DNA of 46,057 nt from Haliea sp. GTDB taxonomy: Bacteria > Pseudomonadota > Gammaproteobacteria > Pseudomonadales > Halieaceae. Positions 37,022 to 41,025 of the stretch are shown in pieces. Under the pieces are notes generated by a model. That model saw only the letters and a list, made by a program, of their open reading frames with translations, ran no database searches and had not been told where the DNA came from. The stretch covers positions 1 through 46,057 of the forward strand of contig PKDD01000146.1 of the NCBI GenBank assembly GCA_002862465.1, written 5' to 3'. The position numbers and the translations under genes were made by a program. How positions within the stretch are numbered: the stretch's first letter is position 1; each line of letters begins with the position of its first letter.

Positions 37022-37414
37022 ATGTCAGCTACCCAATACTATGGAACGGGTCGTCGCAAGACCTCCACCGCTCGCGTGTTTCTAAAAAGCGGCGCCGGCA
37101 CCATTATCGTCAACAAACGTCCTCTCGATCAGTACTTTGGTCGCGAAGTAGCGCGTATGATTGTGCGTCAACCGCTGGAACTCGTCGACCTGAACGGAAA
37201 GTTTGATATCAATGTCACTGTTGCCGGCGGTGGAAGTTTTGGCCAAGCCGGTGCAATTCGCCATGGCATCACGCGCGCCCTTATGGAATATGACGAGTCT
37301 TTGCGGCCCAGTTTGCGCAGTGCCGGATATGTTACGCGTGACTCTCGCGAGGTGGAGCGGAAAAAAGTCGGGCTGCGTAAAGCACGCAAGCGTCCTCAAT
37401 TTTCCAAGCGTTAA
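37022..37414 (+). CDS. rpsI: 30S ribosomal protein S9
   Basis: The 130-residue protein matches S9 in length and sequence: [42 protein letters not shown], and the basic tail ending [11 protein letters not shown] whose last arginine contacts P-site tRNA. It is followed by a strong intrinsic terminator. Confidence 0.98.
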
Positions 37415-37466
37415 GTGGGTTGTCTGCATCTTCGATGTTGGTGAGGATATATATAAAGCGAACCAG

Positions 37467-37498
37467 GCCCGGTTGCTGCGCATCCCGGGCTTTTTTTT
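37467..37498 (+). terminator. Intrinsic terminator after rpsI
   Basis: GCCCGG (37467-37472) pairs with CCGGGC (37485-37490) across a 12-base loop, followed directly by eight T (37491-37498). It lies about 50 bases after the rpsI stop and separates the ribosomal operon from petA. Confidence 0.85.
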
Positions 37499-37541
37499 GA
37501 GCGATTCAAAGGCATCGGGCTTGTAATTTGGGCCCACTCAA

Positions 37542-37589
37542 GCTGTTGCAAAAAAGGCATTCAAATCAAGGCGTTTTCCTTGTAACAGC
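37542..37589. repeat. Inverted repeat upstream of petA
   Basis: GCTGTTGCAA (37542-37551) and TTGTAACAGC (37580-37589) form a ten-pair stem with one G-T wobble and a 28-base loop. It lies in the 269-base gap between rpsI and petA, after the terminator. It may be a copy of a dispersed intergenic repeat or a petA operator; no second copy was noticed in this window. Confidence 0.4.
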
Positions 37590-37683
37590 CGAGCAAAATC
37601 ATTACCATCTGCATCCGTTTAAAGACGCATCTCAGATCATTGTTTGATGGGCGTCAGTTGGCCTGCAATATTGGGAGAGAAGC

Positions 37684-38283
37684 ATGACGAGCGACGGCGT
37701 GAACCCGGGAAGAAGGAAATTCCTGACAGCTGCCACAAGCGCAGTCGGTGCCGCTGGGGCTGTCGGTATTTTAACGCCATTTGTAGGATCTTGGAATCCG
37801 TCAGCAAAGGCGAAAGCAGCAGGAGCCCCTGTCAAAGCTGATGTGAGTCAGTTAGAGCCCGGTCAGATGATTGTTCTCGAATGGCGTGGGCAGCCGGTTT
37901 ATATTGTAAACCGCACCACTAGCCAGCTTGAAGCGCTTGCAGGCCTCAATACCCAGCTGCGAGACCCTGAATCTGAAAACGCTGCGCAGCAGCCAGAGTA
38001 TATCACCGGGATAGAACGTTCTAGCAACCCAAACATACTGGTGGTTGTCGGACTTTGTACACACCTTGGCTGCGCCCCCAAGTTTGTTCCTGAAGTGGGC
38101 GCGCCCGACATGGGCGGAGCCGCCTGGGTGGGTGGATTCTTTTGTCCCTGCCATGGCTCGAAATTTGATCTATCCGGCCGCGTTTATGCGGGCGTTCCTG
38201 CTCCCTCTAACTTGTTGGTTCCTCCCTATTCATATGAGGGTGACGAGGTTTTGGTTGTCGGCGTGAATCCGGAGAATGTGTGA
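37684..38283 (+). CDS. petA: Ubiquinol-cytochrome c reductase iron-sulphur subunit (Rieske)
   Basis: The 199-residue Rieske protein of the bc1 complex carries the [2Fe-2S] cluster that takes electrons from ubiquinol. A twin-arginine motif (GRRKFLT) precedes the N-terminal membrane helix. The cluster ligands are in CTHLGC and CPCHGS, followed by SGRVYAGVPAPSNLLVPPY. GGGAGAG lies just before the ATG. The stop overlaps the downstream gene start by one base (TGATG), so the whole complex is encoded as a two-gene operon. Confidence 0.97.
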   Translation: MTSDGVNPGRRKFLTAATSAVGAAGAVGILTPFVGSWNPSAKAKAAGAPVKADVSQLEPGQMIVLEWRGQPVYIVNRTTSQLEALAGLNTQLRDPESENAAQQPEYITGIERSSNPNILVVVGLCTHLGCAPKFVPEVGAPDMGGAAWVGGFFCPCHGSKFDLSGRVYAGVPAPSNLLVPPYSYEGDEVLVVGVNPENV

Positions 38284-40319
38284 TGAGTAATATGCTAGTT
38301 GGATTAAGAGATTGGGTCGATGCGCGCCTGCCTATCATGAAGGCGTGGAACACGCATATGGCCAAGTATTATGCGCCCAAAAACTTTAATTTTTGGTATT
38401 TTTTCGGAGTCTTGTCCCTGTTGGTGCTGGTTAACCAACTGCTCACTGGAATCTGGCTGACTATGAGCTATACGCCCTCCCAAGAGGACGCCTTCGCTTC
38501 TGTCGAATATATCATGCGTGACGTCGATTACGGTTGGATACTGCGCTATATGCACTCCACGGGGGCGTCGGCGTTCTTCGTAGTGGTCTATTTGCATATG
38601 TTTCGAGCCATGCTTTATGGCTCTTACAAGAAGCCTCGAGAGCTAATCTGGATTTTTGGCATGCTTATTTTTGTTGTGCTAATGGCTGAAGCCTTCGTTG
38701 GCTATGTGCTGCCATGGGGCCAAATGTCGTACTGGGGCGCACAGGTTATTATTTCTTTATTCGGTGCAATTCCTTACTTCGGTGAGGATATCGTCACATG
38801 GATTCGCGGAGACTACCTACTCTCCGGCATTACGCTGAACCGGTTCTTCGCGCTGCATGTGGTTGCTTTGCCTATTATTTTGTTGGCTTTGGTTGTGTTG
38901 CACCTACTGGCACTGCACGAAGTGGGCTCAAACAATCCGGATGGCGTCGATATTAAGAAGTACAAAGATAAAGATGGTGTGCCGCTGGATGGGGTAGCAT
39001 TTCACCCCTACTACACGGTGCATGACTTGCAGGCAATTGGCGTGTTCCTATTTATATTTTGTGGGATCATGTTTTTCATGCCGGAAATGGGTGGCTTCTT
39101 TCTGGAGTATCCCAACTTTGAGCAGGCAAACAATCTGAAGACGCCTGAGCACATAGCCCCTACTTGGTATTTCACGCCTTTTTATTCTGTGCTTCGTGCC
39201 GTGCCAGACAAGCTCTGGGGCTTCGTAGCATTCGCCGCGTCGGTTGCCATACCGTTCATGTTGCCTTGGCTGGATCGTAGCCCGGTCAGATCTTGGCGCT
39301 ATCGCGGTAATATCACGAAGGTAATGTTGGTGGCATTCGTATCTTCATTCCTCATTCTGGGCGTATTGGGTGCCTGGGCGCCCACCGAGGGGCGGACGAT
39401 ACTGGCTCGCATTTGTTCCATCATCTATTTTAGCTTTTTCTTGCTGATGCCAATATGGTCGTCGATTGACAAAACTAAGCCAGAGCCTGATCGCGTGACC
39501 ATGGACGGCGGCATTGGGTTCTGGGGCAGCATGGGCGCTTTACTGCTGGTATTAGCGTTGACTGTTTTGCCTCTGCAAGCGGTAGCAGCATCCTCATACG
39601 CTTGTGGGACTATCGAGTGCGACGAATTTGTAGCTGATCCCCGCGATAAGGCCTCATTGCAGCACGGTATTCAAACTTATATGAATTACTGTATGGGGTG
39701 CCACTCCCTTAAATATCAGCGTTATACTCGGGTAGCGGATGATCTTGGCATTCCGGAGGACCTGTTTAAGGTCAATTTGATGTTCGATCCTGACGTCAAG
39801 ATGGGGTCTTTGATGGAAAATGCCATGGATAACGCTGAAGCTAAAAAATGGTTCGGCGCTGCGCCGCCGGATCTGACACTGGTTTCTCGCGCTCGTCAAC
39901 CGGAGTGGCTCTACACTTATTTGAGAACCTTTTATCAGGACGGTAGCCGCCCATATGGCGTTAATAACAAGGTATTTAAGGACGTGGGTATGCCGCATGT
40001 GTTGCTAGAATTGCAGGGCATGCAGGAGTGCGCCCCGGGTCCCGTTACGGCCGCCAATGGTGGTGTAAAACGCGATCCTTTGACGGGCGAAGATATACTG
40101 GAGGATCCTTGCGGGCAGTTTGTCATTCCGGTAGCTGGAGAAATGACTTCCCAACAGTTCGATAAGACGGTGTATGATCTGGTAAACTTCCTTGCCTATT
40201 CGGCTGAGCCGATGGTCGTTGACCGTCACCGAATAGGCATGTTTACATTGCTTTTTATTGCCTTTTTTACGGTTTTTGCTTGGTTACTCAATCGAGAGTA
40301 CTGGAAAGACGTACACTGA
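38283..40319 (+). CDS. petBC: Cytochrome b / cytochrome c1 fusion polyprotein
   Basis: One uninterrupted 678-residue frame joins cytochrome b and cytochrome c1. Residues about 1-405 are cytochrome b, with haem-ligand histidine pairs in RYMHSTGASAFFVVVYLHMFR and ALHVVALPIILLALVVLHL, and the PEWY-type element as PTWYFTPFYSVLRAVPDK. Residues about 412-437 (GSMGALLLVLALTVLPLQAVA) look like an internal signal peptide. The c1 part has haem c motif CMGCH at 470-474, a DVGMPHVL methionine-ligand region and a C-terminal anchor (MFTLLFIAFFTVFAWLLNREYW). The arrangement resembles Bradyrhizobium fbcH, whose product is cleaved into b and c1. ATG 38283 has GGAG eight bases upstream; GTG 38280 is less likely. 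Confidence 0.95.
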   Translation: MSNMLVGLRDWVDARLPIMKAWNTHMAKYYAPKNFNFWYFFGVLSLLVLVNQLLTGIWLTMSYTPSQEDAFASVEYIMRDVDYGWILRYMHSTGASAFFVVVYLHMFRAMLYGSYKKPRELIWIFGMLIFVVLMAEAFVGYVLPWGQMSYWGAQVIISLFGAIPYFGEDIVTWIRGDYLLSGITLNRFFALHVVALPIILLALVVLHLLALHEVGSNNPDGVDIKKYKDKDGVPLDGVAFHPYYTVHDLQAIGVFLFIFCGIMFFMPEMGGFFLEYPNFEQANNLKTPEHIAPTWYFTPFYSVLRAVPDKLWGFVAFAASVAIPFMLPWLDRSPVRSWRYRGNITKVMLVAFVSSFLILGVLGAWAPTEGRTILARICSIIYFSFFLLMPIWSSIDKTKPEPDRVTMDGGIGFWGSMGALLLVLALTVLPLQAVAASSYACGTIECDEFVADPRDKASLQHGIQTYMNYCMGCHSLKYQRYTRVADDLGIPEDLFKVNLMFDPDVKMGSLMENAMDNAEAKKWFGAAPPDLTLVSRARQPEWLYTYLRTFYQDGSRPYGVNNKVFKDVGMPHVLLELQGMQECAPGPVTAANGGVKRDPLTGEDILEDPCGQFVIPVAGEMTSQQFDKTVYDLVNFLAYSAEPMVVDRHRIGMFTLLFIAFFTVFAWLLNREYWKDVH

Positions 40320-40344
40320 GTGCGCGTAATTGGTGGTGTTGAGA

Positions 40345-40374
40345 TTGACTCAGCGCCATTCCGTGTTCTAAAAA
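40345..40374 (+). promoter_or_regulatory. Candidate sigma-70 promoter of sspA
   Basis: TTGACT (40345-40350) and TAAAAA (40369-40374) are 18 bases apart in the 73-base gap between the cytochrome gene and sspA. The -35 matches at five of six positions, the -10 at four. It would allow sspAB to be expressed independently of the bc1 genes. Confidence 0.4.
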
Positions 40375-40392
40375 AATACTGAGGAATCCTTA

Positions 40393-41025
40393 ATGGGTGT
40401 TGTGGCAAAGCGGTCTTCGATGACATTTTTTTCTGATAGCTCCAGTCACTATAGCCATAGGGTGCGCATTGTGCTGGCTGAGAAAGGTGTCACGGTCGAC
40501 CTCGTCGAATCCGATGCAGCGCACCCTCCCGCCGAGTTGGCCGATCTGAACCCCTACAATAGTTTGCCAACATTGGTAGACCGTGATTTGGTGCTTTATG
40601 AGTCCAAGGTAATGATGGAATACTTGGACGAACGCTTTCCACATCCGCCGTTGTTGCCGGTATACCCAGTGGCTCGCGCAGAAAGTCGACTCTTTATTCA
40701 CCGTATCGAGAAGGATTGGGGCGCACTGGTTGATACGATCCAGCACACTCGCAGTGAGAATGTTATCAAGAAGTCAGTCAAGGAACTGCGTGAAAGTATT
40801 CTGGGTGTTGCGCCAATTTTTGCGGAAAAGCCGTTTTTTATGAGCGACGAATTCACCTTGGTAGACTGCTGCATTGCGCCTATTTTGTGGCGTCTTCCGT
40901 TTTTGGGTGTGGAAATCCGGCCTAGCAAGCAGACAAAACCTCTGCAGACTTATATGGATCATCTATTTAACCGAGAGTCTTTTCAGGAGAGTCTGACCGA
41001 GCAAGAGCGAGAAATGCGACTTTAG
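40393..41025 (+). CDS. sspA: Stringent starvation protein A
   Basis: The 210-residue GST-fold protein binds RNA polymerase and alters transcription during starvation and stress. The thioredoxin-like N-domain has [24 protein letters not shown] and [19 protein letters not shown]. The helical C-domain has [31 protein letters not shown] before the ATG supports the start. It is followed 15 bases on by sspB, the conserved pairing downstream of petABC. Confidence 0.96.

Follow-up and report, generated by a model that had tools for sequence, protein, structure and literature searches.

Lineage-wide fusion of the cytochrome b and cytochrome c1 genes in Haliea sp. and its relatives

In the window analysed here, a 46,057-nucleotide stretch of DNA from Haliea sp., cytochrome b and cytochrome c1 of the bc1 complex are encoded by one uninterrupted gene. 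The fusion is ordinary for the lineage of the window and is lineage-wide rather than an oddity of one genome. Fused b/c1 genes are an already known and named kind: an excerpt of one paper gives the 'cytochrome b/c1 subunit' (fbcH) as an alternative to petB/C (PMC12456017), and an excerpt of another records fbcH for alpha- and gammaproteobacterial MAGs (PMC7565560). Among the titles and abstract beginnings that were retrieved, none was found to describe a gammaproteobacterial b/c1 fusion or its processing. This literature search was not aimed at a conserved Lys or a ninth helix on cytochrome b, and no mention of either was met in those titles and abstract beginnings. Three aspects of the fusion may be of weight, namely its spread over 14 families of one order, an origin separate from that of the fusion seen outside the class, and the presence in one family (f14) of a cytochrome b that carries the ninth helix with no c1 joined behind it.

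One frame encodes cytochrome b, a junction helix and cytochrome c1

The gene is a single forward-strand frame of 678 codons with its ATG at 38283, a stop codon ending at 40319 and no internal stops (Table 1). Its ATG overlaps by one base the TGA (38281-38283) of petA, the Rieske gene directly upstream. A Pfam search of the 678-aa protein returned Cytochrome_B at residues 28-215 and Cytochrom_B_C at residues 281-383 (PF00033 and PF00032), both above their curated cut-offs, and Cytochrom_C1 (PF02167) in two stretches, the best of them at residues 455-553 (64.8 bits against a cut-off of 22.8). The cytochrome b part has the four conserved His and the Qo motif P-x-WY, and the c1 part has CXXCH, a downstream Met and a C-terminal anchor. 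His91, His105, His192, His207 and Met570, which we take to be the haem ligands, are kept in all 51 aligned fused proteins. The frame itself, Pfam and the relatives bear out the sequence-only reading that one unbroken frame holds a complete cytochrome b, a signal-peptide-like helix and a complete c1, and CMGCH lies at residues 470-474 as that reading had placed it. It had further found neither a stop nor a ribosome binding site at the junction; the frame is indeed open there, and the absence of a ribosome binding site is a judgement by eye alone.

The gene order is zapE-like, rplM, rpsI, petA, the fused gene, sspA and sspB, in which zapE, rplM, rpsI and sspB are presumed names. NCBIfam identified the upstream gene as the proteobacterial Rieske subunit, and no NCBIfam model scored above its cut-off on the fused protein. 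Among the matches listed, petA 5' and sspA 3' flank 25 of the 30 fused and 44 of the 49 separate named loci. Scans of 37400-40450 yielded no promoter-like sites, and terminator-like sites at chance level only.

The Qo motif of the window (39159-39170) reads PTWY, and that of 47 of the 51 aligned fused proteins reads PVWY. In c1, Cys583 (40029-40031) and Cys610 (40110-40112) are invariant in the 51 fused proteins and likely form a disulfide; a second, N-terminal Cys pair (CGxIxCD) is common among them.

Table 1. Positions in the window of the fused gene, its parts and its conserved neighbours
Feature	Positions	Strand	Evidence
petA, Rieske iron-sulfur subunit	37684..38283	+	TIGR01416, 224.8 bits (cut-off 97.4)
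Fused cytochrome b - cytochrome c1 gene, 678 aa	38283..40319	+	ORF and Pfam
Cytochrome b part, ~residues 1-402; His91, His105, His192, His207; Qo PTWY 293-296	38283..39488	+	Pfam, alignment
Junction helix (ninth membrane helix), residues 412-435	39516..39587	+	AlphaFold2; hydrophobic segment
Predicted signal-peptidase site A433-V434-A435|A436 (alternative: after A436)	39579..39590	+	Profile score 20.9
Predicted mature cytochrome c1, residues 436-678	39588..40316	+	Pfam, cleavage profile, identity to 8smr_J
Haem c motif CMGCH, residues 470-474	39690..39704	+	No variation at C470, C473 or H474 among 51 fused proteins
Met570, presumed sixth ligand of haem c	39990..39992	+	Present in 51/51
C-terminal membrane anchor of c1, residues 645-677	40215..40313	+	Helix in AlphaFold2 model
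sspA (stringent starvation protein A-like), conserved neighbour 3'	40393..41025	+	NF007016, 304.5 bits (below cut-off 314); synteny

The fusion is lineage-wide within the order and rare in the class sample

A survey of fused petBC genes, which the sequence-only reading had called for, was run at four taxonomic levels. In the window's own family 130 genomes were searched, 118 had a c1 match and 106 of these had a frame of at least 599 aa; in the order 135 were searched, 128 had a match and 41, in 14 families, had a frame of at least 659 aa. Both fractions (106/118 and 41/128) take frame length as the criterion and were tallied by hand from the search output. Among the other 12 genomes of the family, three are fused but cut off or short (G257, G212, G276) and G241 has only a divergent separate b/c1 pair (L179); the c1 frames of G201, G309, G284, G266 and G274 look cut off, and those of G311, G289 and G228 are small fragments. 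In G276, of the same genus as the window, a second, separate b/c1 copy (L181) occurs besides the fused one. The two separate pairs of the family, L181 and L179, are divergent in c1, and we offer the reading that they are second copies, transfers or contamination.

Across the class, 129 genomes were sampled and 106 had a match, a few of them fragments. A frame of at least 600 aa was found in the window and in none of the 105 others, the longest of which (G330, 540 aa) belongs to separate genes; separate petB and petC are thus the rule in the class, as had been claimed. In the phylum, at least 120 of the 135 genomes searched had a c1 match. Six genomes with long frames were fetched from outside the class: the frame test showed fusion in L185 and L186, L184 and L190 have separate genes, and BLAST found no cytochrome b in L187 and L188.

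Frame length alone was rejected as proof of fusion, since G470 has an open frame of 694 aa, yet its b and c1 are separate (L184). Long c1 frames were also seen in G478 (664 aa) and G468 (573 aa), and that of G478 joins SH3-like repeats, not cytochrome b, to c1. This is a second c1 copy of the same phylum (L187, 1473-3428, minus strand; 651 aa), with repeats recognised by eye before the c1 domain; no cytochrome b was found on the fetched stretch around it. Because frame length is unsafe by itself, frame tests were made on fetched loci; each of the 14 families counted as fused has one or more genomes that passed (in f1, the window itself).

Among the matches listed, the 80 named loci that were kept comprise 30 fused, 49 separate and 1 incomplete, and loci L004-L113 (n=110) comprise 33 fused, 76 separate and 1 incomplete. 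The names listed for fused loci include Halieaceae, Zhongshania, Gilvimarinus, Marinimicrobium, Porticoccaceae and Pseudohongiella; all the Pseudomonas loci among the matches listed are separate. One locus on a contig named Verrucomicrobiaceae (L084) has the same b and c1 identities and the same junction sequence as L225 of G029, a genome of the window's order, so that this contig is probably misbinned.

The fusion arose independently of that outside the class

To place the fusion, we compared fused and separate loci in trees of cytochrome b, of c1 and of both. A single clade for the fusions inside and outside the class, with all 9 fused rows of 26 held together, was rejected on cytochrome b (p-AU 6e-63). 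L185 and L186 are, in our reading, alphaproteobacterial and have an fbcH-like architecture; in the tree their neighbours are rows with separate genes that likewise come from outside the class of the window. The fusion in the window's order arose independently of theirs. The comparison with Bradyrhizobium fbcH made in the sequence-only reading is apt as architecture, with a single b and c1 gene behind the Rieske gene and an internal export helix as in the window, but not as a shared event with the fusions outside the class. Their junctions differ as well, reading ARA|EG and AKA|AE, in contrast to PLKAVGA or PLQAVAA in the clade of the window.

The number of fusions within the order is less clear-cut. 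The label fused or separate changes five times on the cytochrome b tree (113 rows) and five times on the c1 tree (110 rows). On the concatenated tree (86 rows, after 12 long or odd rows and 17 further rows, for speed, were dropped and 2 added) it changes three times, with fused rows in three places and a main fused clade of 33 rows (SH-aLRT 96). The odd rows dropped include L206 and L181, which are separate and lie inside the fused clade in the cytochrome b tree, and their removal accounts for the fall from five to three. Holding all fused rows of the order as one clade gave p-AU 0.048, the main clade with f46 0.111 and the main clade with f44 0.254. A motif P[LI]K that is common to parts of all three fused groups speaks for one origin. 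Every tree in this analysis, those that place f14 included, was a quick search, except for the cytochrome b tree behind the p-AU of 6e-63.

The petA-petB-petC locus of Pseudomonas is orthologous, in its subunits and with the same neighbours. In the bc1-cbb3 supercomplex of P. aeruginosa (8smr), chain D has 73% identity to cytochrome b of the window and chain J 52% to its c1. In Pseudomonas, b and c1 are separate, with the start of c1 overlapping the stop of b (gap -1) in a shifted frame; c1 there has its own MKK signal peptide. With an overlap of a single base in a shifted frame, a small indel and loss of the stop could have fused the two genes.

The junction resembles a signal peptide with a predicted cleavage site

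AlphaFold2, run with 51 fused sequences (mean pLDDT 75.2), modelled a confident helix over residues 412-435 that ends at 435, with a mean pLDDT of 83 for residues 411-420 and 94 for 421-430. A hydrophobic segment follows cytochrome b in the fused rows (65 rows), and the segment between b and c1 is signal-peptide-like. Its cleavage was predicted with a home-made profile of 15 positions, used in place of SignalP and trained on a non-redundant set of 152 N-termini from separate c1 proteins, whose cut sites are themselves inferred. In the window the maximum falls at AVA|AS after Ala435 and scores 20.9 bits, against a training median of 22.6; the next score elsewhere is 2.5. The cut had been expected after about residue 437; a site does lie at the junction, but the likeliest cut is after 435 (or 436).

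Most relatives score lower. The profile was run on 65 fused rows, made up of the window plus 64 loci; two of these loci come from outside the class, and one genome is present twice, as L146 and L208. The top-scoring position is in the junction in 59 rows and outside it in 6, and in L060 and L185 the peak is in the junction yet not at a plausible site. Junction scores range from -5.4 to 24.5, with 53 of the 65 between 4 and 13, so that most lie well below the training median and overlap the maxima of separate cytochrome b, for which the control of 174 separate-gene loci gave a median best score of 0.5 and a maximum of 11.4. A permissive (-3,-1) count fits 65/65 and does not discriminate. With these lower scores, cleavage is not certain for all members.

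P[LIV]x[AVS][VAS][GAS][AS] occurs at the junction in 57 of 62 fused rows (the set without L146 and the two rows from outside the class), and x is Lys in 45 of the 57; the window has Gln there, and its site is stronger than that of most relatives. P[LIV][KR][AV] is found in 0/152 separate c1 signal peptides, of which only 3 have K or R in their last 8 residues. Among the aligned fused proteins, residue 432 is Lys in 37/51 and residue 435 Gly in 33/51, and such junctions may be cut slowly or not at all. Val or Ala occupies residue 434 in 49/51, and Ala or Ser residue 436 in 47/51.

In family f14 the ninth helix ends a separate cytochrome b

Family f14 belongs to the same order and was represented by six genomes of two genera (G013, G055, G088, G116, G142, G166; loci L257-L262). 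In all six, b and c1 are separate, and cytochrome b ends as R[VI]TM[DN]GG-helix-stop, with the same ninth helix as the fused clade; in one genome (L253/L261) some bases a little upstream of this helix are unread. Whereas the frame of the window runs on into c1, that of f14 stops after the helix, and c1 is encoded by a separate petC that follows and brings its own signal peptide. The helix tail has a best cleavage score of -4.7 to 1.4 in 6/6 genomes. For the signal peptides of c1 the range is 18.0-23.2 in the 5/6 genomes where a c1 frame was picked up, values that are not fully independent because L206, of f14, is in the training set. The site is thus absent where c1 has a signal peptide of its own and the helix does not need one.

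On cytochrome b, f14 groups with the fused clade: the best tree has four f14 rows inside it (SH-aLRT 97), and a placement outside was not rejected (p-AU 0.18). Either a secondary split or a surviving intermediate would be compatible with the trees. The quick c1 tree raised the idea that c1 was replaced in f14, which is unproven, as holding f14 c1 together with fused-clade c1 was not rejected (p 0.62).

Probable processing of the precursor

We consider it likely that the precursor is cut by signal peptidase, leaving helix 9 on cytochrome b and giving a normal bc1 complex; sequence and relatives support the earlier expectation of a single precursor that contains a signal-like helix. Cytochrome b of bc1 complexes has eight helices and its C-terminus in the cytoplasm. 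The single gene would yield a single membrane precursor in which the ninth helix, directly after cytochrome b, runs outward and carries c1 to the periplasm; this helix would be a descendant of the c1 signal peptide, or would have taken over its job. Signal peptidase would then cut after about Ala435, and mature c1, with its own C-terminal anchor, would assemble with cytochrome b and the Rieske subunit into a normal bc1 complex, with b and c1 made in a fixed 1:1 ratio and helix 9 still attached to cytochrome b. What the sequences show directly is the frame and the selection on it, how widely it occurs, the conserved junction and, in f14, a homologous helix on cytochrome b where the genes are separate. 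For Haliea sp. we infer that a cut takes place, in which order the events occurred, that b and c1 come in this ratio and what becomes of helix 9. The Bradyrhizobium fbcH precursor is reportedly cut by signal peptidase; for the window, division into b and c1 is a prediction.

It is unlikely, though conceivable, that the protein stays fused, the ninth helix being a plain transmembrane linker and b-c1 one permanent subunit. The geometry would permit it, since a helix that runs outward places c1 on the periplasmic side, and the weak junction scores of most relatives, with Lys near the outer end of the helix, point the same way. Against this, the junction score of the window is like that of a real signal peptide, the small residues 434-436 persist across the clade, and the cleavage site is missing where c1 is a separate gene, in f14. 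Cleavage is favoured over permanent fusion on these grounds, which sequence as such would not decide.

Translation of c1 also, or only, from an internal start at Met407 or Met417 is very improbable. Both are in-frame ATG codons just 5' of the helix, Met417 is preceded by GGGG, and Met407 is the majority residue of the fused alignment (consensus RVTMxGG). By eye, however, no purine-rich site precedes Met407, and R[VI]TM is kept in 5/6 genomes of f14, with RITM in the sixth (L262), where no c1 follows in frame, so that RVTM need not serve c1. Met417 is Met in only 12/51, and starts at either codon would lack a positive n-region, whereas the signal peptides of separate c1 have a mean net charge of 1.9.

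The nearest named relatives among the matches listed share the frame of the window: a Halioglobus MAG (L034) at 95% protein identity and a Haliea MAG (L035) at 93%. Over residues 399-445, they differ from it by 13 silent and 5 replacing and by 21 silent and 8 replacing codon changes, respectively, with no indels, a dominance of silent changes which indicates that the junction is translated and selected. An assembly frameshift or missed stop joining two real genes has a negligible chance of being correct, given the same frame in other assemblies, the silent differences across the junction and the fused-length frames of the own family; neither chance nor assembly error needs further consideration.

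For the cut precursor, the fate of helix 9 bears on cytochrome b itself. The helix has its own conserved sequence, in most fused members with a Lys close to the outer end, and the homologous helix on f14 cytochrome b, with no c1 behind it, is the best hint that helix 9 stays in the fused relatives. We hold the chances to be evenly balanced that the clade has a nine-helix cytochrome b, the helix being a former c1 signal peptide kept after the cut, even where the genes are separate. If true, a signal peptide would have been recruited as a structural helix by the protein that precedes it, a testable question. A C-terminal hydrophobic segment of unrelated sequence was also seen on the cytochrome b of a separate-gene locus of the same class (L163, G534, family f180).
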